DNA of 64,000 nt, taken from contig JABSRZ010000003.1 of the NCBI GenBank assembly GCA_013214705.1, positions 775,443-839,442 on the forward strand, given 5' to 3'. Source of the stretch: Hyphomicrobiales bacterium. GTDB taxonomy: Bacteria > Pseudomonadota > Alphaproteobacteria > Rhizobiales > OSC116. Of the stretch, positions 1,158-55,264 are shown piece by piece. The notes under the pieces are model-generated. The model was not told where the DNA came from. It made no database searches and saw nothing but the letters and a program-made list of their open reading frames with translations. Each line of letters opens with the position of its first letter. Positions within the stretch are counted from its first letter, which is position 1. Position numbers and translations under genes: made by a program.

Positions 1158-1166
1158 ACTGTTGCG

Positions 1167-1301
1167 CTGGGCTACTGCGCAGTCCAGCCGCCAACTTAAT
1201 GTTGCCGATGGCGTGAAGAGCTGGGCTACTGCGCAGTCCAGCCGCCAACTTGATGTTGCCGATGGCGTGAAGAGCTGGGCTACTGCGCAGTCCAGCCGCC
1301 A
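1167..1301. repeat. 54-bp tandem repeat, 2.5 copies, derived from the bdh 3' end
   Basis: Two full units (1167-1220, 1221-1274) differ at one position and are followed by a 27-bp partial unit (1275-1301). Read on the minus strand, the partial unit is the end of the dehydrogenase gene, coding GGWTAQ and a TAG stop, so that segment is repeated twice more beyond the real stop. Each unit contains the perfect palindrome ACTGCGCAGT flanked by CTGG/CCAG and could form a hairpin. The unit is 18 codons long, so the frame is kept through the array. Confidence 0.9.
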
Positions 1302-2059
1302 TCTAGAGGCAAGCTAACGCCGGTCATCTGGCTGGCAGCAACAGAGCATAAAAACACCGCCAAATCGCCCAATTGTTCAACCTGTACAAAGCTTTTGCTG
1401 GGTTGTTTCTCGCCCAATAATTGTTCAATCGCCGCTTCTTGGCTACCTAATATTTTGGCTTTGTCATCTATTTGTTGTTGAATTAATGGGGTTAAGGTAA
1501 AGCCCGGGCAAATGGCATTGGCGGTAATGTTGGCCTCGGCGGTTTCTAGTGCCACGGTTTTGGTTAACCCCACCAGCCCATGTTTTGCCGCCACATAAGC
1601 TGATTTATTGACCGATGCCACCAAGCCATGCACCGAAGCCACATTGATAATGCGCCCCCAACCATTTTGGCGCATTTTGGGCAGGCACAGTCTGATGGTG
1701 TGAAAAGCACTGGATAGGTTTATGGCGATGATGTCATCCCATTTTTGCGGCTCAAATTGCTCTATCGGCACCACATGTTGAATGCCGGCATTGTTGACCA
1801 ATATATCCACCATGCCAAATTCGGCTTCCGCCAAATTGATCATTTGCGCAATCTCAGCCGGCGACAACATATTTGCATCGCTATAAATAACTTTGCCACT
1901 GCCTTGGCCATTAACCTGTTCTATGGCTTTGGCGATGTCGGCTTTGCTGCCAAACCCGCTTAAAATTATGTTGGCATTTTGTTTGGCAAGCTGGCGCGCA
2001 ATGCCCAGACCAATGCCAGATGTCGAGCCGGTGATTAAGGCGGTTTTGCGGTGGAGCAT
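1280..2059 (-). CDS. bdhA: 3-hydroxybutyrate dehydrogenase (SDR family)
   Basis: A classical short-chain dehydrogenase of 259 residues that should oxidise D-3-hydroxybutyrate to acetoacetate with NAD+ in the cytoplasm, part of PHB or ketone-body use. Visible motifs are the N-terminal TGSTSGIG nucleotide-binding loop, NNAG near residue 90, a catalytic serine in NVASVHG, YVAAK (the Tyr-Lys pair) and a CPGFTLTPL segment followed by a helix rich in Q/D/K, as in BdhA enzymes. The C-terminus GGWTAQ is also typical of the family. The last codons belong to a 54-bp tandem array. Other SDR substrates cannot be excluded but the overall pattern fits BdhA well. Confidence 0.85.
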   Translation of the reverse strand: MLHRKTALITGSTSGIGLGIARQLAKQNANIILSGFGSKADIAKAIEQVNGQGSGKVIYSDANMLSPAEIAQMINLAEAEFGMVDILVNNAGIQHVVPIEQFEPQKWDDIIAINLSSAFHTIRLCLPKMRQNGWGRIINVASVHGLVASVNKSAYVAAKHGLVGLTKTVALETAEANITANAICPGFTLTPLIQQQIDDKAKILGSQEAAIEQLLGEKQPSKSFVQVEQLGDLAVFLCSVAASQMTGVSLPLDGGWTAQ

Positions 2060-7261: not shown

Positions 7262-8389
7262 CTAGGGTTTGTAATAATTTTGCGGCACAAATGGCATGGC
7301 GGCAATTTTGGCCGGGCGGGCTTTGCCACGCACCATTAAATCCACTTCAGTGCCAATGCTGGTAAATTCGATATCGACATAGCCCATGGCAATTGGCCCG
7401 CCAAAAGTTGGGCCAAACCCGCCAGAGGTTATTTCACCAATTTTTTGGCCTGATTTGCTATAAATTTCTGTATGTTCGCGTGCTGGTGCGCGGCCTTCGG
7501 GCAATATGCCTACCCGTTTGCGGTTTGCGCCTTGCTCTATTTGTTGCAACACAATGTCTGCCCCAATAAACCCACCCTCTTGGCGGCGGCGCTTGTTTAT
7601 CGCCCATAATAAATCGGCTTCAACTGGGTTGGTTGTGGTGTCGATGTCATGCCCATAAAGGCAAAGGCCAACTTCGAGGCGAAGGCTATCACGCGCGCCA
7701 AGGCCGATGGCCTCAACCTCATCATGTTCAAGTAAAAGATTTGCAAATTCAATAGCTTGATCGTTGGCGATTGAAATTTCAAAACCATCTTCGCCGGTGT
7801 AGCCACAGCGAGCGATGACCAGATCTGTGCCGTCAAAATCGACATGGCTTATGCTCATAAACGGCTGTGTTGCCACTTGCGGAACATGTAGGGCTAATAT
7901 TTGCGCCGCCTTTGGCCCTTGCAATGCGATTAACGCCCGGTCGAGAATTTCTAATGTGGCTATGCCGGATAATTGCTGGCCTATATGTTCGAAATCGACA
8001 TGTTTACAGCCGGCATTGACCACCAAATATAAACGTTGGCAGCCATTTTCATCTTCACCCAAACGGGTTATCATTAAATCATCTAATATGCAGCCATTAT
8101 CTGCCATTAACAGGCTGTAACGGGTGCGGTTTTCGGCTAGGTTTATTAACGATGCTGGCACAAGTTTTTCAAACGCTTCGGCTATATTCACATCGGCATT
8201 GGCGGCGGTTAACACCGCTTGGCCCATATGTGATACATCAAACAAGCCCGCATTTTGGCGGGTGTGGTTATGCTCGGCCAACACGCCTAATGGATATTGT
8301 ACAGGCATGTCATAACCGGCAAAAGGCACAATTTTTGCCCCCAATTTGACATGTAAATCAAATAACGCAGTTTTTAAATTATCGCTCAT
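7262..8389 (-). CDS. gcvT: Aminomethyltransferase (T protein)
   Basis: A 375-residue folate-dependent enzyme that takes the aminomethyl group from GcvH, releases ammonia and forms methylene-tetrahydrofolate. Recognisable parts are the N-terminal FAGYDMPVQYPLGV, FDVSHMGQ, the catalytic aspartate region RTRYSLLMADNGCILDD, CGYTGEDGFEIS, and LGARDSLRLEVGLCLYGHD. The ATG at 8389 has GAGGGG 5 nt upstream and is preferred to the GTG two codons earlier. It is the first gene after the glycine riboswitch and so the control point of the operon. Confidence 0.95.
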   Translation of the reverse strand: MSDNLKTALFDLHVKLGAKIVPFAGYDMPVQYPLGVLAEHNHTRQNAGLFDVSHMGQAVLTAANADVNIAEAFEKLVPASLINLAENRTRYSLLMADNGCILDDLMITRLGEDENGCQRLYLVVNAGCKHVDFEHIGQQLSGIATLEILDRALIALQGPKAAQILALHVPQVATQPFMSISHVDFDGTDLVIARCGYTGEDGFEISIANDQAIEFANLLLEHDEVEAIGLGARDSLRLEVGLCLYGHDIDTTTNPVEADLLWAINKRRRQEGGFIGADIVLQQIEQGANRKRVGILPEGRAPAREHTEIYSKSGQKIGEITSGGFGPTFGGPIAMGYVDIEFTSIGTEVDLMVRGKARPAKIAAMPFVPQNYYKP

Positions 8390-8464
8390 AATCACCCCTC
8401 AAGTGTGTAAAATATTTTAAATAAATATTACCTAAAATATACAGAATCCAGCCAACCCCATAAA

Positions 8465-30753: not shown

Positions 30754-31650
30754 ATGGCACAAATTTTAGACATGGATAATTTACGCACTTTTTTGGCCAT
30801 TGCCGAATCTGGCAGTTTTACCGCTGCCTCACGCGAGGTGTTTAAAACCCAAAGTGCGGTTTCGATGCAAATGAAACGGCTCGAAGACACCATCGGTAAA
30901 AAACTATTTTACAAAGAAGGCCGGATAAACCGCCTCACCCGTGATGGCGATATTTTGCTTAATTTTGCCCGCCGAATCATTAGGTTGAACAATGAAGCCC
31001 TGCTCACCATCACCCAACCTGAAATTTCGGGCTTGGTGCGCCTTGGCATTGGTGATGATTATGCCGAACGTTATTTGCCAGAAATTTTGGCACGTTTTTC
31101 TTATTCTAACCCCAATGTCGAAGTGGCCATTGTTTGTGACGACAGCACCTATGTGGCCAAACAATTGCAAAAAGGTGAATTAGATTTAGCAGTTGGCACT
31201 GGCGGCGAATTTAGCGAACATGGTGAATTGCTTAAACGCGAGCGGTTGGTGTGGGCCACCAGCGCGACCCATAGCGCCCAATTGCAAGATGTATTGCCCA
31301 TTGCCATTTGCGGCGATGATTGTGGCTGGAGCAACCAAGCCACAAAAACCCTTAAAAAAATGAACCGACCTTATAGAGTGGCTTATAAAGCCCGCAACCA
31401 TGCGGTTATTGCCTCGGTGGTTATTGCCGGTTTGGCGGTAACGGCCATTGCCCAAAGCGGTTTACGCCCGGGCATGCGCACCCTAGGACCAGACGAAGGC
31501 TTTGCCGAATTAGGCACCAGTGACATTTCATTGTTAAAACCACTCGCGCCACTATCATCGGCAGCCGAGATATTAAGCCAACACATATGCGATAGCTTGG
31601 CAACATTGGGCACAAATGGCCTGCAGAGTTTTAGTGATGCTGCAGAATAA
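30754..31650 (+). CDS. LysR-family transcriptional regulator
   Basis: A 298-residue regulator with an N-terminal winged helix (LRTFLAIAESGSFTAASREVFKTQSAVSMQMKRLE, about 10-45) and a LysR substrate-binding domain from about residue 90. AGGAG lies 7 nt before the ATG. The inducer and target are unknown: the nearest genes (MATE, DUF1127, gshA) do not form an obvious divergent pair. Its 3' end faces repeat element A. Confidence 0.9.
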   Translation: MAQILDMDNLRTFLAIAESGSFTAASREVFKTQSAVSMQMKRLEDTIGKKLFYKEGRINRLTRDGDILLNFARRIIRLNNEALLTITQPEISGLVRLGIGDDYAERYLPEILARFSYSNPNVEVAIVCDDSTYVAKQLQKGELDLAVGTGGEFSEHGELLKRERLVWATSATHSAQLQDVLPIAICGDDCGWSNQATKTLKKMNRPYRVAYKARNHAVIASVVIAGLAVTAIAQSGLRPGMRTLGPDEGFAELGTSDISLLKPLAPLSSAAEILSQHICDSLATLGTNGLQSFSDAAE

Positions 31651-31683
31651 TTTTCTACGAAAATTTTTCTGCTTAATTGTTTT

Positions 31684-31910
31684 TAGCACTGCGTGCGTTC
31701 GCTCCGCTCTCTAGCTACGCCCTAACGGGCGGGCCTCAATGGCCATCTCACCAACTTCGTTGGTTCGGGGAAACCTCCTGCAACTTTGTGCAGAGTTTCT
31801 GGCTGCCCCAAGAATCCCGGTGATTCGACGAGTGCGCCCAGAAGCCGAGAGGCATTCTGTGTGGCCAACGCGCGGAGGCTAGAGAGCGCAGCGAACGCAC
31901 GCAAGTGCCA
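31684..31910. repeat. Dispersed hairpin element, copy A
   Basis: This copy is framed by inverted arms of about 30 bp (31686-31715 and 31879-31908; GCGTGCGTTCGCT versus its complement AGCGAACGCACGC). Inside the left arm follow three small hairpins: GCCC-TAAC-GGGC, GGCC-TCAAT-GGCC and ACCAAC-TTC-GTTGGT. A further CTGCA/TGCAG hairpin lies in the centre. Frames inside have no ribosome binding site and are not shared with other copies. The gap between lysR and gshA (convergent) holds nothing else that I recognise. Confidence 0.75.
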
Positions 31911-32028
31911 ACAGTGAGGCGAAGCCGAACGTATAAATGGGAGTACCCGTAAAGTCAGCAGGAGCGCCAACTGTCTATGTCTTTACAGCATCAAACGCTG
32001 GCTCAGCGGTTGAAACTCTGAGTGTGGC

Positions 32029-33408
32029 TCAGTAGCTATATTCCTTAAATATGCGGTTAATGTCGCCCGCCCATTCGCCGTGATATTGCTCAAGCATAAC
32101 GTCGGCATGGGTGCGGCCGGTCGAGGTGATTTCGAACAGATTTTCTAAAAATACGGTTTCATTAACGCCGCTGGTGTCTTTTAAATCGCGTGCGGCGAGG
32201 CCTTGGCGGGAAATTTCGACCATTTGTTTGGCAATGTCTTGCACGGTGCCATTTCTAAATGGGGTTTGTAGTGCGTCTTTGGGCACAGCGTTGCGCAAGG
32301 CCAACATTTCATCTGTGCTCCAGTCTTTGATTAGCTCATAAGCTTGGTCAAGTGCGGCAGAATCATATAACAAACCCACCCATAAAGCTGGTAACGCGCA
32401 TAGGTTTTGCCAACTGCCGGCATCTGCGCCGCGCATTTCTAAAAACTGTTTCATCCTCACTTCGGGGAATAATGTGGTTAAATGGTCTTCCCAATCGCTT
32501 ATGGTGGGTTTTTCGCCGGGCAAGCAGTTTAATTTTCCGTCTAAAAAATCTCTAAAACTTTCGCCGGTTGCGTTGATATAGTGGCCATCACGGTAAACAA
32601 AATACATTGGCACATCTAAGGCATGATCGACATAAGACTCAAAACCTGCGCCGTCTTCAAACATAAATGGCAACATGCCGGTGCGGGCATTGTCAGTGTC
32701 TTTCCAAACTTCGCTTCGATAGCTTTTAAACCCATTGGGCTTGCCATCAGCAAATGGCGAATTGGCAAAAATTGCGGTGGCAATTGGTTGTAAGGCCAAG
32801 CTCACGCGCAGTTTTTTAAGCATATCCGCTTCTGATTCGAAATCTAAATTCACCTGCACGGTGGCGCTGCGGAACATCATCTCGCGCCCCAATGTGCCAA
32901 CGGTTTGCATATATTCGCGCATTATTTTATAGCGGCCCTTGGGCATAATCGGCACATCGGCTAATTTCCATGTCGGGGCAAAACCTAGGCCGATAAAGCT
33001 GCGGCAATGCACATCGCCCACTGCCCGCACTTGGCGCAAATGGCTATGCACCTCGCGGCAAGTCTCGTGAATGGTGCTTAATGGCGCACCCGAAAGCTCG
33101 AACTGCCCACCCGGTTCCAGGGTGATAGAGCCTAAAATATCTGTGCTTGAGTCTAGTCTTGGGGCTTTTAGGCCAATTAATTTGCCCTCTTCCATCATCG
33201 GTGTCCAACCAAAGCCATCGCGCAGGCTGGCCATCAATTGCTCTATGCCGCATTTGCCGCCATAGGGCAATGGTGTCAGCTCATCATTACAATAGCCAAA
33301 TTTTTCATGCTCGGTGCCAATTCGCCATTGCGATTTGGGTTTGCAGCCCCGGCTAAGCGCTTGGATGAGGTCTTGTTTGTTTTCGATCAGAGGGGAGGTC
33401 TTTGCCAT
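32029..33408 (-). CDS. gshA: Glutamate-cysteine ligase
   Basis: The first enzyme of glutathione synthesis, ATP-dependent, of the plant/alphaproteobacterial type (459 residues). Recognisable stretches are WRIGTEHEKFGY, YGGKCGIEQLM, LGSITLEPGGQFELSGAP, CRSFIGLGFAPTWK, MPKGRYKIMREYM and the RGADAGSW segment. I start at ATG 33408 (MAKTSPLIENKQ), because the upstream TTG frame only translates an 18-bp DNA repeat. The rsmE gene lies upstream on the same strand. Confidence 0.94.
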   Translation of the reverse strand: MAKTSPLIENKQDLIQALSRGCKPKSQWRIGTEHEKFGYCNDELTPLPYGGKCGIEQLMASLRDGFGWTPMMEEGKLIGLKAPRLDSSTDILGSITLEPGGQFELSGAPLSTIHETCREVHSHLRQVRAVGDVHCRSFIGLGFAPTWKLADVPIMPKGRYKIMREYMQTVGTLGREMMFRSATVQVNLDFESEADMLKKLRVSLALQPIATAIFANSPFADGKPNGFKSYRSEVWKDTDNARTGMLPFMFEDGAGFESYVDHALDVPMYFVYRDGHYINATGESFRDFLDGKLNCLPGEKPTISDWEDHLTTLFPEVRMKQFLEMRGADAGSWQNLCALPALWVGLLYDSAALDQAYELIKDWSTDEMLALRNAVPKDALQTPFRNGTVQDIAKQMVEISRQGLAARDLKDTSGVNETVFLENLFEITSTGRTHADVMLEQYHGEWAGDINRIFKEYSY

Positions 33409-33423
33409 TTTTCTAGGCTTTCT

Positions 33424-33478
33424 AAATTTTAACAGGTGGCTAAATTTTAACAGGTGGCTTAATTTCAACAGGGTGGCT
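33424..33478 (-). repeat. Three 18-bp tandem repeats in the gshA leader
   Basis: Two identical 18-bp units (33424-33441, 33442-33459) and a diverged third (33460-33478) lie 15-70 bp upstream of the gshA start. Each contains AGCCACCTGTTAAAATTT on the minus strand or a variant. The units sit where a 5' untranslated leader is expected. Confidence 0.85.
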
Positions 33479-36631: not shown

Positions 36632-36877
36632 ATGGCAGACGAACAAAAATTACACATGGTAGCAGGCGGTGAACTTGAAGACCTGAAATCGATTAAATTT
36701 CGCGATTTAAGCAAGCTTGATATTGTCGGCATTTACCCCAATTATCAAGAGGCGGTCGACGCTTGGAAATCTAAAGCCCAAGGCACAGTCGACAACGCCC
36801 ATATGCGTTACTTTGTGTTTAACCTGCATAAACTTATCGATTTGGATATTGATGTGGATGAAGATAAAAGGATTTAG
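36632..36877 (+). CDS. DUF4170 family protein
   Basis: An 81-residue acidic cytoplasmic protein of the DUF4170 type: LHMVAGGELEDL, VGIYPNYQEAVDAWKSKAQ and DNAHMRYFVFNLHKLID are characteristic. This family is found in alphaproteobacteria, often next to CysQ-like genes as here, and has no established function. GGTGGAG precedes the ATG. It is the last gene before repeat element B. Confidence 0.88.
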   Translation: MADEQKLHMVAGGELEDLKSIKFRDLSKLDIVGIYPNYQEAVDAWKSKAQGTVDNAHMRYFVFNLHKLIDLDIDVDEDKRI

Positions 36878-36892
36878 GGTTTTTGGTTGGTT

Positions 36893-37220
36893 GACGGCTG
36901 CTGTTTTTTGCCTGACACTGCGTGCGTTCGCTTGCTACGAGCTTTTTTTCTTAACACTGCGTGCGCAAACTCCGTTTGCTTGCTACGCCCTAACGGGCGG
37001 GCCTCAATGGCCAAGTTCGCCAACAAGTTGGCTCGCCTTTTTTACCTTGTATAGGTGGGGCAGACGGAAATTTTGTACTGATTATCATGGGAAAAAAGTC
37101 CGAAGCCGTAAGGCTGAGGCAAGCACGACTGCGCGTCGCCGTTAGGCGTGGCAAGCAAACGGAGTTTGCGCACGCAGTGTTAGGCAAAAAAACAGCAGCC
37201 GTCAGGCGCACGCAGTGTTA
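36893..37220. repeat. Dispersed hairpin element, copy B, with nested inverted arms
   Basis: An outer arm pair (36894-36924 with 37169-37200) and an inner pair (the CACTGCGTGCG/ACGGAGTTTGCGCACGCA region, about 36955-36990 with 37140-37180) enclose the core at 36981-37036. The core has the hairpins GCCC-TAAC-GGGC, GGCC-TCAAT-GGCC and GCCAAC-AA-GTTGGC. The ACACTGCGTGCG block occurs twice on the left and its complement twice on the right, so the element looks partly duplicated. No convincing coding region is inside, and the gap holds nothing else. Confidence 0.8.
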
Positions 37221-37227
37221 AAAAAAT

Positions 37228-38487
37228 TCACAACTCTGCAATATATTGCCTTGTTAGGTTTTTGCTTTGTTCGACTGCGGGCTGGTCGAAGGCGTTTACT
37301 TGCATAAGCTCGGCGGCGGCAATGGTTTCGCACATGAAGTGCATTAGTAACGCGCCCATGGTGGCTTCATCCAATTTTTCTAGCGTGATATAGCGCACGG
37401 GAATGGCTTTATCGGCCAAAGTTTGTGCCGTTGCGCGTTGTTGCGCGGTCACAATGTCGCCAATTGTGCGCCCGGCAATATAATCAAATTGATCGCCCGA
37501 AAATACGTTTGGCTTAAGCAAATTGCCTTGGCCAGATTGGTCTAGGGTGATGAAAGTTACATATTTATTTTTAGGCCCATCTAAAAATAATTGCTGTTGG
37601 CTATGTTGATCTACCGGGCCGATGGATGAAATGGGGGTTATACCTTTGCCATCTTTGCCCAAGCTTTCGGCCCATAACTGCACATACCAAGCGGTGAATA
37701 ATTTCAACTGGTCTTTATACGCCCAAAGTACGTTTTCACAATGGCCTTTACCATCGAAATAAACACTATAAGCCGCGCCTTCAACCGCATGTTTTGGGTT
37801 GTCCATCACCGAAATAGCGCCGCGTTTTATCTCCGCCAAATCTAAATCGAACAAAGCCGCTACAAATAAACCAACGTTAGACAATACCGAAAACCGCCCA
37901 CCAATGCCTTGATGATGATCTAAAATCGGCATTTTATATTGTTCGGCAAGTTGGCGAATGGGGTTCAGAGTTTGCTTATGTGGCTCGGTTATAATCACCG
38001 CGCTGTCGGCCAGATAATCTGCCCCATTATGGCCAATCGACCAATCTAGATATACACTCGCCAACGCCACGGTTTCTAAGGTCGTGCCAGATTTAGAAAT
38101 GATGACCACGCCAGTGGTTTTGGGGTTAAGACCAGCTAGTAAATTGGCCAAACTTAACGCATCTAGATTGTCTAAAAAATGAATGTTAAACGGTTTATTG
38201 GCATCACTGCCGACACAGCCATAACCCGCTAGTTGCACCAAAGCTTGGGCGCCAAGGCTCGAGCCGCCGCAACCAATATGCACAATGTCAGTGAGGCCAG
38301 TTTTGAATTTTTTGGCCACTTGGTTAATGTCATCAATTTCAGACATATCGGCAGCATTGGCAAAAAATGCCATCTGTTTAAATTTTGCATCCAAGCCCTT
38401 TTGGGCTTCGTTAATCATCAAAGTGATGCGGTCATTGTCAAGTTTTAGCGTTTCAGCAGATAAAATACTGGCTTCATAAAGGCTCAT
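37228..38487 (-). CDS. pgi: Glucose-6-phosphate isomerase
   Basis: A 419-residue isomerase interconverting glucose 6-phosphate and fructose 6-phosphate. Family signatures are HIGCGGSSLGAQA, VVIISKSGTTLETVA (sugar-phosphate loop), GIGGRFSVLSNVG (the catalytic Gly-Arg region) and VDQHSQQQLFLDGP. It is much shorter than the 549-residue E. coli enzyme and lacks its N-terminal extension, as in a compact class of Pgi. With glk it forms the entry of glucose metabolism. Its 3' end faces repeat element B. Confidence 0.92.
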   Translation of the reverse strand: MSLYEASILSAETLKLDNDRITLMINEAQKGLDAKFKQMAFFANAADMSEIDDINQVAKKFKTGLTDIVHIGCGGSSLGAQALVQLAGYGCVGSDANKPFNIHFLDNLDALSLANLLAGLNPKTTGVVIISKSGTTLETVALASVYLDWSIGHNGADYLADSAVIITEPHKQTLNPIRQLAEQYKMPILDHHQGIGGRFSVLSNVGLFVAALFDLDLAEIKRGAISVMDNPKHAVEGAAYSVYFDGKGHCENVLWAYKDQLKLFTAWYVQLWAESLGKDGKGITPISSIGPVDQHSQQQLFLDGPKNKYVTFITLDQSGQGNLLKPNVFSGDQFDYIAGRTIGDIVTAQQRATAQTLADKAIPVRYITLEKLDEATMGALLMHFMCETIAAAELMQVNAFDQPAVEQSKNLTRQYIAEL

Positions 38488-47238: not shown

Positions 47239-47883
47239 ATGAAATTTAACACCGCATTGTCAAAACACTCTGACGAGATTTTGAAGCTGTTAAAAAATGC
47301 ACGAGACAAAGACATAAAACTTAATGATGTTATGTCGATGGCTGAAATTATGATGAATAGCATGCATGCTTTTTTTAAAAGTATGGACGTTGCAGTTTAT
47401 AAAGAAATGCGCGACATTGCCACTTACATCGAAAAAGCCAAAGGCGATATATCAAACCTTCAAGCCAACAAATTAAAGGGCGAGCACATACCTGTGGCTG
47501 GCCGTGAGTTGGACGAAGTTGTGGCCGCAACCGAGCGGGCTACCGACATTATTATGGAAAACGCCGAAAATATTATGGCCACCGATACATCCGACCCAAT
47601 TGCCTACCAAAAGGCGGTGAATGAAGGGTTGATGAATATATTTGAAGCCTGTAGCTTCCAAGACATTACCGGCCAGCGCATAACCAAAGTGGTCGGCACG
47701 TTAAAACACATTGAAGAGCGGGTGTCTAAATTTGCCTCTGCCACCGGTGTGCAAGACAGTGAAGGTGTGTTTACTGAAGAAGAAATAAAACGCTTTAAAC
47801 GCCAAAAAGATCTTATTTTACACGGCCCGCAAGCCGAAGGCAAAGGCACCGCACAAGATGATATTGACGCGATGTTTGATTGA
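47239..47883 (+). CDS. cheZ: CheZ-like CheY-phosphatase
   Basis: A 214-residue mostly helical protein. The catalytic motif is FQDITGQRITKV with D142 and Q146, equivalent to D143/Q147 of E. coli CheZ, near the end of a long four-helix-bundle region. The last residues (DDIDAMFD) resemble the short acidic CheY-binding tail of CheZ. It forms a two-gene unit with the upstream CheY. An intrinsic terminator follows 20 bp after the stop. Confidence 0.85.
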   Translation: MKFNTALSKHSDEILKLLKNARDKDIKLNDVMSMAEIMMNSMHAFFKSMDVAVYKEMRDIATYIEKAKGDISNLQANKLKGEHIPVAGRELDEVVAATERATDIIMENAENIMATDTSDPIAYQKAVNEGLMNIFEACSFQDITGQRITKVVGTLKHIEERVSKFASATGVQDSEGVFTEEEIKRFKRQKDLILHGPQAEGKGTAQDDIDAMFD

Positions 47884-47929: not shown

Positions 47930-48070
47930 ATGCCACAGTTTCTGGATTTGCGCACGAGTTTCCGACGCTGAACCTGCCTTTAATCTTGCTAAGACATAGA
48001 CAGTTAGCGCTCCTGCGTATACAGGGATTCCTCCATCTATATCGCTCACGGCCATACCGCACTTCGTGCT

Positions 48071-48144
48071 GGCCTACGCGGGTGCGCCACATAAGTGGCG
48101 GCCTCCAATCCGGCTGGTTCAAAAAACACATGAGTTTTTTGAAC
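48071..48144 (+). repeat. Dispersed hairpin element, copy C1 (variant)
   Basis: The same order of elements as in the other copies, but with altered stems: GCCAC-ATAA-GTGGC, then GCC-TCCAATCC-GGC, then a perfect 11-bp AT-rich stem (GTTCAAAAAAC at 48117-48127, GTTTTTTGAAC at 48134-48144). The upstream stretch 47930-48070 shows no gene. Confidence 0.6.
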
Positions 48145-48211
48145 GGGAGTTATGCGGCAATTTTGCGCTGAATTTCGGGAAACTACGGACAATGAGGTAG
48201 TGTGGGTAAAA

Positions 48212-48304
48212 GGGGCGAGCCAACTTGTTGGCGAACTTGCCGACTGAGGCCGCCGTTAGGCGCAGCAAGAGAGCGGAGCGAACGCACGCACGCAGTGTAG
48301 GCAA
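48212..48304 (-). repeat. Dispersed hairpin element, copy C2
   Basis: Minus-strand copy closest to copy B: GCC-TAAC-GGC, a diverged middle hairpin, GCCAAC-AA-GTTGGC and the GCGTGCGTTCGCTCCGCTCT arm at the right end. Only one arm is recognisable. The whole gap from 47930 to 48331 between cheZ and the HAD gene is filled by these two copies and unassigned sequence. Confidence 0.7.
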
Positions 48305-48331
48305 AAGAATCAGCTTAAATAAACAAAGTGT

Positions 48332-49225
48332 TTATTTAAGCTGTGCCAAATAGTATTTTACATCAACGCCTTTGAGTTTTATCTGCTGTTCGATAAAGTT
48401 GGTAAAATCATCGGAAAATACATCGCCGCCGGTGTGTTTTTCGGATTGTTCGAACTCGCGGGCATGGATGCCATCGGCGACAAATAGCATATCGGCGCCC
48501 AATTTATTTGCGCCGGGGACATCGGTCGCCAAGCCATCGCCTATAACTAGTATTTTTTTGGGGTCTATTTTGGTTTCGGGTAGCAATTTGGCCAATTTGT
48601 CTAAGGCTATTTGATATATTTGCGAATGCGGCTTGCCGGTATAAATCACCTCGCCGCCCAGCTGTTTATATAAAGCGGCCAAAGCGCCTGCGCAATAATA
48701 TAACGTGCCGCCGACATCCACAACATTGTCGGGGTTAGAACATAAAAACGGTAAGTTTTTTTGCTTCATTTGGGTCAATAATGGTAAATAATCTTGCAGG
48801 TCTACTTCATTTTTTTCGGCCAAAAATGTACATAAAACATAATCGGCTTTGTCTAAATCTACCAATTCAGAAAAATCTGGCTGTACGGCTTCGGTGTCGC
48901 TATCTCGCAAGCCTAAATGAAAACATTTCTGCCCGTTTGCTGTCCATTTTTTAATAATCGCTGCAGCCACATCGCCCGAGGTTATAATGTCATCATAAAA
49001 GCCATCCTCAGCCTGAATGACGTTTTTAAGATGGTTGATAACTTGACTTGCGGAGCTTGGCGCATTGGTGATCAGAATAACCTTAACGCCTTTGGCACGT
49101 GCCGCTTTCAGGGCTTTGACGCTGGCTTTAAATGGCGTCACACTATTGTGAATCACCCCCCATATATCGCTAAATATGGCGTCATAATTGCATAATATTT
49201 CATCTAAATTTGTAATTTTCTGCAT
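48332..49225 (-). CDS. HAD-superfamily hydrolase, TIGR01459/NagD-like
   Basis: A 297-residue phosphatase of the class II HAD group. The nucleophile motif reads FSDIWGVIHNS rather than DxDxT; in this subgroup the second aspartate is often replaced, as here. ILITNAPSSASQV is motif II, YTGKPHSQIYQIAL carries the motif III lysine and ILVIGDGLATDVPGANKLGAD is motif IV. The substrate is unknown. With the missing second aspartate the activity is uncertain. Confidence 0.82.
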   Translation of the reverse strand: MQKITNLDEILCNYDAIFSDIWGVIHNSVTPFKASVKALKAARAKGVKVILITNAPSSASQVINHLKNVIQAEDGFYDDIITSGDVAAAIIKKWTANGQKCFHLGLRDSDTEAVQPDFSELVDLDKADYVLCTFLAEKNEVDLQDYLPLLTQMKQKNLPFLCSNPDNVVDVGGTLYYCAGALAALYKQLGGEVIYTGKPHSQIYQIALDKLAKLLPETKIDPKKILVIGDGLATDVPGANKLGADMLFVADGIHAREFEQSEKHTGGDVFSDDFTNFIEQQIKLKGVDVKYYLAQLK

Positions 49226-51144: not shown

Positions 51145-52794
<1,650 letters not shown>

Positions 52795-52803
52795 ATCTGA
52801 TTT

Positions 52804-52905
52804 CGTTCGCGGCTATTCTCGCTGCGCTCGGCCTACACGGGGTGCGCCTTAACAGGCGGGCCTCAATGGCCAAGCTCACCAACGAGTTGGCTCGGAGGAA
52901 TACCA
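52804..52905 (+). repeat. Dispersed hairpin element, copy D
   Basis: Core with GCCT-TAAC-AGGC, GGCC-TCAAT-GGCC and CCAAC-GA-GTTGG. The left flank GTTCGCGGCTATTCTCGCTG resembles the arm of copies A and C2 weakly. No right arm is seen; instead the groEL terminator hairpins follow. Confidence 0.7.
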
Positions 52906-53035: not shown

Positions 53036-55264
53036 TTATTCGACCAAGATTTCGCTGCGGGCAATCACTTTTCTGGTGTCCATTAATTTATAGCGAATTT
53101 CATATTTGCCAGCGGTTTCTGGCACATAAATAAACAATGGGCTGCCCTGAATTGTGCCAGCTTTGCTCAGTGGGTTGGCATTGTCTTTGGCACCCAATTT
53201 GGTAATTTCAATGCGGTCGCCTTTGCTGTTAGGGCCTGTCCAGCTCACTTCGATGGCGTCGCCCGCATTGGCTTTGCTTGGCGCGCTGATGCTGGCATTC
53301 ACTGGCCTTAGCATCACATCGACATTCGTCAATGTGCGTTTTGACACCCCCACCACATATCTCACTTCAAACAGTCCCAAAGCTTTGGGCACTTTAAACT
53401 CCACTGGCGAGCCTCTGCCGGTATAGGCATAGCTATTAAAGCTGCCTTGTTCCGCGCCTTTTTCGACAATGGTTATATAGTCGCGTTTGCCATTAGGGCC
53501 TGTCCATTCCACGGTAATTTTGCCGCCCGGAACTGGCGCATTGACCACACTTAGTGTTGCCGATGTTGCCAGCAATTCAATCGGCGCAAAGGCCAAAGTG
53601 CGCTTGGAGCTACCAAACACATATCTAATTTCATAATCACCGACCGCATCTGGCGCGGTAATTTTAGCCGGGTTGCCATTTTGGGTATAGGCATAATCTA
53701 GATATTCGCCCTCCTCTACGCCTGATGGCACGATGGTGATATAATCGCCTTTATTGCTAGGGCCACTCCAATTTACCAAAAATTCGGTCGAGCCAAACAC
53801 AGTCGCTGGTGCGTCAATATTGCCAGCAACCGCCGTTACTTTAATATCAACGCTGGCCAAAGTGCGTTTTGAGCTGCCCAATACATAACGTATCTCATAG
53901 TCTCCTAAACCATCGGGCGCGCTCAAAGTCGATGGATTGCCGTTTTGCGCATAGGCATAATCTAGATATTCGCCCTCATCTGAGCCTTTGGCTACAATGG
54001 TAAGATAGTCTCGATCATATGCCGGGCCGAACCAATTTATCGCAAATTCCGCACCCGCCGCCACAGTTTTGGCCACGTCTATTGTGACGGCGATTTCAGT
54101 CACTTCGATGTCGCGACGCGCCACGGTTTGCTTGGTTTCGCCATAGACATATCTGATTTCATATGTGCCCACGCCGTCTGGTGCGGTTATAGCCGCCGGG
54201 TTGCCATTCTGAGTGTAGAAATAGCTGGTATAGACACCCGGTTTTGCGCCTATTTCAACAATGGTCACATAGTCAGATTTGGCATTTGGCCCGCCCCATA
54301 CCACGTCGAACGTGGCACCGCGCGCCACGCTGGCCGGCGCATCTAGTGTGGCTTCTAGCTGTTGCACTTCAACCGGCACTTCAATAATTTGCTTTTGCAC
54401 ATCGGCAATTATGCTGAATTCTGTACCGCCAGATACATTTTGCCCGGCAACCGAAACGCTATAGTCGCCAGCTTCTAAACTGCCGATAGAGGCTTCAAAC
54501 GCGGTTGTGGTGTGGATGTTTTGGTTATTGGCATCGCTTATTGTCCAATCTAACGAAATCCCGGTAACCCGGTTGCCATTTTGGTCGATAGCGACCAGCC
54601 TGACATTGGGTATAATGGCCGCAACGGTTTGGTTTAACGCCTCGACCAATTCACTGGCATTGGCAGCGGAAAAATATTGCCCGCCGGTGTTTTCAGCCAA
54701 ACATGCCACTTGTTTGCCTTCGGCTTTAGACAAGCCGAAGCCCACCACATGGGCGGTAAAATCCAGCCCTTGGGCTTCTAATGACGTGCCTATTTCGCAT
54801 ATATTGGCTTTGCAGGTTTCCAGCCCATCGGTGATTAATATAACTGTGGCTTTGTCTTCGGTATAACGCAATTCCTTGGCGGCCAATTGCACCGCTGCAC
54901 TTAACGGCGTTTTGCCTAAAAATTTCAAACTATCGACTTTATTGGCTATTTCATCGGCCGAACCGGCTCTTGGCGGCACGATAAGCTCAATGTCACTGCA
55001 ATCGCCTTTAACCCGATGCCCATAGGCCATGAGGCCGAGTATAGTTGTATCGGATACGCCTTTTAGCACTTCACGCAGCGTTTCGCGGGCAATGACCAAT
55101 TTGGGTTTGCCATTAATTTGCCCCCACATAGAGCCGGAACCATCTAGCACAATCATGGTGCGCTCGGCCGCCTGTACCGAAATAGGTATGACGTTGAGAT
55201 AAACCAGAGCCAACAAAGCCAAAACAGCCTTTGATGCGTCCGTTAATTGCCGAGACCAAAACAT
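53036..55264 (-). CDS. Secreted VWA-domain protein with five C-terminal repeats
   Basis: A 742-residue exported protein: signal peptide (about 1-32, ending VQA), a von Willebrand factor A domain (about 35-215) with an intact MIDAS (DGSGSMW, T in LITDGLE, and DCSD-type loop), a linker domain (about 220-300), then five repeats of about 88 residues to the end. Each repeat has the pattern W-GP-DY-TIV-G and Y-QNGNP-APD-G-YEIRYV-G-KRTLA and probably folds as a beta-sandwich. Similar proteins occur in Rhodobacterales. Role in adhesion or envelope sensing is inferred only. Confidence 0.85.
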   Translation of the reverse strand: MFWSRQLTDASKAVLALLALVYLNVIPISVQAAERTMIVLDGSGSMWGQINGKPKLVIARETLREVLKGVSDTTILGLMAYGHRVKGDCSDIELIVPPRAGSADEIANKVDSLKFLGKTPLSAAVQLAAKELRYTEDKATVILITDGLETCKANICEIGTSLEAQGLDFTAHVVGFGLSKAEGKQVACLAENTGGQYFSAANASELVEALNQTVAAIIPNVRLVAIDQNGNRVTGISLDWTISDANNQNIHTTTAFEASIGSLEAGDYSVSVAGQNVSGGTEFSIIADVQKQIIEVPVEVQQLEATLDAPASVARGATFDVVWGGPNAKSDYVTIVEIGAKPGVYTSYFYTQNGNPAAITAPDGVGTYEIRYVYGETKQTVARRDIEVTEIAVTIDVAKTVAAGAEFAINWFGPAYDRDYLTIVAKGSDEGEYLDYAYAQNGNPSTLSAPDGLGDYEIRYVLGSSKRTLASVDIKVTAVAGNIDAPATVFGSTEFLVNWSGPSNKGDYITIVPSGVEEGEYLDYAYTQNGNPAKITAPDAVGDYEIRYVFGSSKRTLAFAPIELLATSATLSVVNAPVPGGKITVEWTGPNGKRDYITIVEKGAEQGSFNSYAYTGRGSPVEFKVPKALGLFEVRYVVGVSKRTLTNVDVMLRPVNASISAPSKANAGDAIEVSWTGPNSKGDRIEITKLGAKDNANPLSKAGTIQGSPLFIYVPETAGKYEIRYKLMDTRKVIARSEILVE

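Follow-up and report, generated by a model that had tools for sequence, protein, structure and literature searches.

The convergent gap of 350 bp between a DUF4170 gene and pgi in an uncultured marine Hyphomicrobiales bacterium raises the question of what kind of palindromic DNA occupies it and how such DNA came to be there. The window, that is, the whole stretch of 64,000 nucleotides that was analysed, contains in this gap a composite of palindromic modules that fills it almost exactly and is designated here as array B (Table 1). The initial annotation had read this stretch (copy B, 36893-37220), together with a second one (copy A), as a MITE-like mobile element with long inverted arms. The coordinates given for copy B were correct, and its nested arms were recovered as the inner and outer pairs listed in Table 1. 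The arms of copy A, proposed to be about 30 bp long, are there as well and measure 26 nt, with the copy itself covering approximately the extent of array A; its DNA fold has z = -8.5. Two copies beyond A and B, arrays C and D, were found in the window. The predicted folding energy of array B is -176.7 kcal/mol, compared with -118.5 +/- 5.7 kcal/mol in shuffled sequences (z = -10.1; 0 of 100 shuffles equal it). The arms had been described as built from a common motif; they far exceed chance, unlike the motif TGCGTGCG alone, which gives a weak signal (8 observed versus 3.7 expected, with 3 of 100 shuffles reaching 8). A search for a target-site duplication found no direct repeat bracketing array B.

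Table 1. Coordinates of array B, its modules and other features of the window.
Feature	Position	Strand	Remarks
DUF4170 gene	36632-36877	+	left neighbour of array B
Array B	36892-37226	.	built of palindromic modules; occupies the convergent gap
pgi	37228-38487	-	right neighbour of array B
Inner arms, array B	36943-36989 (+) / 37145-37191		47 nt, 94% complementary
Outer arms, array B	36892-36909 (+) / 37187-37204		18 nt, 100% complementary
Further arms, array B	36946-36966 / 37206-37226; 36904-36926 / 37169-37191
Truncated extra copy of terminal cap + HP1 + CTAC tag	36915-36939	+	ACACTGCGTGCGTTCGCTTGCTACG; direct repeats D1, D3
Left string, order of modules			cap CACTGCGTGCG, HP1 GCAAACTCCGTTTGC, linker TTGCTAC, HP2 CGCCCTAACGGGCG, HP3 GGCCTCAATGGCC, HP4 GCCAACAAGTTGGC
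HP1, variable hairpin	36965-36979	+	GCAAAC-TCC-GTTTGC; about nine alternative stems in other copies
GTAG-type tag (CTAC on + strand)	36983-36986	-	three bases from HP1
HP2	36986-36999	+	CGCCCTAACGGGCG; other copies and species have short and compensated variants
HP3	37000-37012	+	GGCCTCAATGGCC; alternative module GCCTCAGTCGGC
HP4	37019-37032	+	GCCAACAAGTTGGC; alternatives GCCAATAAATTGGC, CACCAACTTCGTTGG
Scrap of the full-length element's outer-end module	37056-37079	+	GGGGCAGACGGAAATTTTGTAC
Second hairpin string	37099-37182	-	TCCGAAGCC..GGCTGAGGC..CGTCGCCGTTAGGCG..HP1..cap
Duplicated terminal cap	37206-37220	-	GCGCACGCAGTGTTA; direct repeat D2
lysR	30754-31650	+	neighbour of array A
Array A	31652-32016	.	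core string, outer modules, part of central module E
Arms, array A	31690-31715 / 31878-31903		26 nt, 96% complementary
gshA	32029-33468	-	neighbour of array A
Array C	47947-48348	.	convergent gap, genes 47239-47883 (+) and 48332-49225 (-)
Array D	52843-52900	+	partial core string; convergent gap downstream of groEL (51145-52794, +)
Glycine riboswitch RF00504	8601-8708	-	70.5 bits; upstream of gene 7262-8395 (-)
Tandem 54-bp repeat, 3 copies	1166-1327		first two copies 98% identical; across another convergent gap; contains palindrome-like stretch GCTGGGCTACTGCGCAGTCCAGC
264-bp periodic repeats	53591-54313		inside large gene 53036-55264 (-); likely repeated protein domains

Array B is built of a left and a right string of small hairpins in facing orientation, separated by a scrap of a third module. 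This composite make-up is what gives the copy its nested look. The right string has the cap and HP1 in common with the left one, and its other hairpins are of the type prevailing in a sister species. The tag next to HP1 reads CTAC/GTAG in 38 of the 45 full copies (84%) and GCAG in three. Rfam models applied to the window at gathering thresholds matched only the glycine riboswitch and a tRNA; the arrays matched no described RNA family.

The longest arrays follow a symmetric plan, and the full form reaches about 450-650 bp in some of them. An outer module that ends in CTGAGTTTCCGTCTGCC is followed by two variable hairpins, the first preceding GCACGCAAGTGCCAACAG and the second AACGTATAAATG, and by a module whose end is GGCAGGAGCGC; next is the central module E (about 116 bp), after which the same modules come in reverse complement. 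The linkers between modules, CTTGCTACG and CTTGCCTC, are constant; the left and right arms often bear different alleles of one module. Full-length copies have the inverted ends GTCTGCC..GGCAGAC and CACTGCGTGCG..CGCACGCAGTG, and the string HP1-HP4 stands at one or both ends of the full form or alone. The predicted fold of a full copy is a long stem bearing side hairpins (z = -4.8). A protein-coding origin of module E was considered and rejected, as its variability is equal across codon positions (0.156/0.143/0.160) and each frame is interrupted in at least one copy.

The genome (3.5 Mb in 45 contigs) was sampled by stretches. DNA searches gave dozens of matching places, the best candidates being scored; at least 75 arrays, many of them 350-650 bp long, were delimited in 423 kb taken around the matches, and only two in 280 kb of unselected DNA (fourteen 20-kb stretches), which makes at least 77 arrays of this kind. 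The arrays are thus clumped, and the genome total is probably about a hundred. Eleven random 20-kb stretches of contigs C23, C41 and C34 contained no arrays. C45 and the surroundings of the window, by contrast, have one array in every 10-16 kb; clumping is strong in the genome G000. One cluster, at C41:19-60 kb, is close to dnaA (C41:12.3 kb); placement by the replication origin was nevertheless discarded as an explanation, because other clusters lie elsewhere and the GC skew gave no clear answer. Searches with an RNA model of the HP1-HP4 string gave matches in each of the six genomes of the genus and, with strict filters, in none of 146 further genomes tested from the order. Judging by these searches, the family appears to be confined, as far as the tested genomes show, to a single Hyphomicrobiales genus. 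The named relatives of the host are uncultured Hyphomicrobiales/Alphaproteobacteria MAGs (NORP94, NORP194, BB6 and DT_98). A phage, plasmid or viral origin of the arrays was also considered and obtained no DNA matches.

The copies had been characterised as dispersed, non-coding and palindromic, and this was borne out, with none of 73 arrays overlapping a gene predicted by our own simple gene caller. Gaps with arrays comprise 35 convergent, 33 tandem and 4 divergent ones, against 26, 214 and 56 among gaps without arrays. The resulting enrichment in convergent gaps over the rest (p = 2e-13) refers to targeted DNA that had been picked around arrays; in the unselected window, arrays occupy 4 of 10 convergent gaps and none of 47 others (p = 0.0005). 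Within tandem gaps, 28 of the 33 arrays are closer to the upstream stop codon (p = 7e-5). The arrays avoid genes and promoters and crowd at the 3′ ends of genes, a distribution the same as that published for REPs, which show a bias to convergent and unidirectional gaps and closeness to 3′ ends (PMC3733652). Arrays at C34:54500-74000 and C34:191000-207000 adjoin genes with KAP P-loop NTPase, HD-CE/HATPase and Thoeris ThsB TIR-like domains; these regions are possibly defence islands.

The stems of the small hairpins change by wholesale compensatory replacement, loops and linkers remaining constant. Across 40 copies of HP1, AU, UA, CG and GC pairs are found at the same positions. Cells changed on both sides number 49, compared with 18 in shuffles, and the covariation score is 0.152 versus 0.063 (a value reached by none of 500 shuffles; slid controls stay at or below 0.083), although these counts overstate the independent events because the copies within one genome are related. 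The number of distinct perfect stems does not suffer from this overstatement. The stem alleles comprise GCAAAC/GTTTGC, GCTTTC/GAAAGC, GCACGC/GCGTGC, GCTTAAC/GTTAAGC, GCGAAC/GTTCGC, GAGATAC/GTATCTC, GCTTGC/GCAAGC and GCGGTAC/GTACCGC, along with a non-palindromic allele, GTTCGCTCCGCTCTC, and several of the HP1 alleles recur in other species. Compensated stems of HP2 (CGTCC..GGACG, CGCGC..GCGCG) and of HP4 (GCCAAAAA..TTTTTGGC) also occur in other species. One-sided changes of the G-U type are almost absent from HP1, so that selection at the RNA level is not specifically indicated.

Modules are reshuffled as well. Six module features form 28 combinations among 45 full strings, and the four-gamete condition holds for most module pairs. 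Direct evidence of module replacement inside an existing element is provided by the 3′ end of pnp in the genomes G001 and G005: the two have near-identical flanks and agree over the central module and much the greater part of the left half, yet their right-hand hairpin blocks are wholly unlike, and they differ in two smaller hairpins too.

The comparison of relatives, where gene order is conserved over 20 kb around sites A, B and C, gave both empty and filled gaps. In BB6 (L050) the three sites are array-free gaps of 33, about 57 and about 93 bp, which agrees with the empty sites expected by the initial annotation; the target-site duplication that was to accompany them was not found at copy B. 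L048 and L049 have arrays at all three sites, and in these the caps and HP1 are shared with the host and the inner modules are different. The modules at site B stand in the opposite order to those of the sister species, which makes shared ancestry of the insert there uncertain. An element is present at rplS in G000, G001 and G005 and absent in G002-G004; at pnp it is present in the same three genomes and absent in G003 and G004; upstream of truB it is present in G000 and G002, and G003 has an apparent decayed remnant. In NORP194, site A (L049:17016-18984) contains two extra genes between arrays where other species have one array; by eye, they encode an SPFH/band-7-like protein and a small Arc-like protein. 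It looks as if arrays serve there as recombination points by which genes are gained.

It seems probable to us that the arrays are a mosaic repeat of the BIME/RIME type that has spread through the genus, persists at the 3′ ends of genes and is rewritten in place. Each palindromic module could fold back on itself in single-stranded DNA or RNA, and the family would have spread as non-autonomous DNA, persisting almost only where an insert does little damage, namely immediately behind stop codons, above all in convergent gaps. Once in place, each patch would be rewritten by exchange with other copies, either by recombination (gene conversion) or by a switch of template at the constant linkers, and such exchange would replace whole hairpins and keep the palindromes perfect. 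The comparisons show the dispersal, the restriction to the genus, the 3′-end location, the compensatory stems, the reshuffling, the exchange of modules in place between species and the differences in occupancy between species; both the mode of copying and that of exchange are inferred. Any function, such as protection of transcript 3′ ends, bidirectional termination or binding of the gyrase/IHF type known from enterobacterial BIMEs, would be secondary. Against this reading, a mobilising enzyme was not found, so that spread by transposition is unproven; segmental recombination could also disperse modules, and the clumping of arrays is not what simple random insertion would produce. A further suggestion, which we hold to be doubtful, is that the hairpin itself is the mobile or exchangeable cassette, with an activity on folded single-stranded DNA swapping whole stem-loops at constant linkers and the scaffolds staying put. 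If true, this would be a hairpin-cassette system in which alleles circulate across copies and species, unlike the transposition of a whole REP.

A true MITE, non-autonomous, with terminal inverted repeats and moved in trans by the transposase of its own or a recently lost element, would account for the symmetric full-length copies with their inverted ends, the empty sites in relatives and the multiplication within one genus. The reading of the initial annotation is supported in part, as the arrays do share with MITEs their short, non-coding character, terminal inverted repeats and many copies. What argues against a MITE proper is that no transposase was recognised among genes between neighbouring arrays, that no direct repeat brackets copy B and that the ends vary. 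Genes between neighbouring arrays look ordinary, and none of the ten less obvious ones checked against Pfam was a transposase. PF01797 (Y1_Tnp, the RAYT superfamily) had no matches in the host genome and four congeners, the positive controls E. coli and Caulobacter both matching; the sixth genome, G004, has three Y1 genes that are neither near arrays nor flanked by the repeat. No flanking duplication was seen at the array ends compared at pnp, a comparison limited by the divergence of the empty sites. The ends and content vary by module, and the ends are not fixed because the copies are mosaics of interchangeable hairpins and not deletion derivatives of one transposon. Two observations had been named as speaking against mobility, the same occupancy in every relative and the lack of a transposase whose ends match. 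The outcome lay half-way between the two possibilities: these searches found no matching transposase, and the sites proved to be empty in some relatives and filled by different mosaics in others. We consider a true MITE unlikely.

The same search bears on a REP or REPIN of the GTAG super-family driven by a RAYT whose gene is now lost. The GTAG-like tag by HP1, the short loop, the stem of 6-7 bp with compensatory sub-families, the inverted dimers, the clusters and the shared genomic distribution bring HP1 close to GTAG-tagged REPs, and a RAYT-REP unit can, according to the literature, disappear through deletion (PMC3733652). With Y1_Tnp missing or unlinked in the genomes searched, HP1 is not classed as a GTAG-tagged REP despite its tag and stem sub-families; elements of up to 650 bp with many unrelated modules are, besides, larger than REPINs, and this origin is in our estimation improbable. 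Elements selected at 3′ ends, as bidirectional terminators or transcript-stabilising hairpins spread by selection and not by mobility of their own, would fit the strong 3′-end and convergent bias, the conserved foldback and the ordinary bidirectional terminator-like hairpin that an array-free relative has in the gap of site C. However, a terminator-like hairpin also adjoins the array itself at site C and at pnp, the array hairpins are not directly followed by T-runs, unlike intrinsic terminators, and empty sites are tolerated in relatives; it is very unlikely that selection of this kind explains the arrays.

Among known intergenic mosaics, the Rhizobium-specific intergenic mosaic elements (RIME) are short, about 100 bp, and contain two palindromes, and the neisserial ones (NIME) are intergenic mosaics of short inverted repeats with interchangeable units. 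The arrays can be likened by description to RIME, as alphaproteobacterial intergenic mosaics of large palindromes; NIME are built of different units, those exchanged in the arrays being hairpins with near-perfect foldback. RIME are attributed to Osteras et al. 1995 in PMC2873474, and NIME (dRS3/RS arrays) are named in PMC9778887 and related papers. The likeness to BIME/REP (PU) and GTAG-tagged REP sequences (PMC3733652, PMC2817692) includes extragenic palindromes, compensatory stem sub-families, inverted dimers, mosaic clusters, location at 3′ ends in convergent and unidirectional gaps and a GTAG-like tag. Features of the BIME type found in the arrays are mosaics of palindromic units with other short motifs, alternating orientation, extragenic location and rarity in divergent gaps; that of GTAG-REPs is a palindromic unit of 20-40 bp with a GTAG-type tetranucleotide at one end. 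The arrays differ from them in having no RAYT, at least eight different hairpin modules, a symmetric central module and patches of up to about 650 bp, and in their occurrence, among the genomes tested, in one Hyphomicrobiales genus only. Like MITEs and REPINs (PMC3116915) they are short, non-coding, inverted-repeat and multicopy, but the parent transposase and the duplication were not found and the ends are not fixed.

The arrays are mosaic hairpin repeats that resemble the REP/BIME type and are unusually large and modular; they are a variant of these known repeats, and the variant is new. The in-place exchange of whole hairpins, by whatever mechanism it may proceed, is the most instructive part. 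Since several species have the same gaps empty, filled or module-swapped, their comparison gives direct access to the order of events and to the exchange junctions. CGTC-type REPs present the same puzzle of palindromes with no recognisable transposase (PMC3733652), and the arrays matter for understanding how REP-like repeats originate and how near-perfect palindromes are maintained without one.
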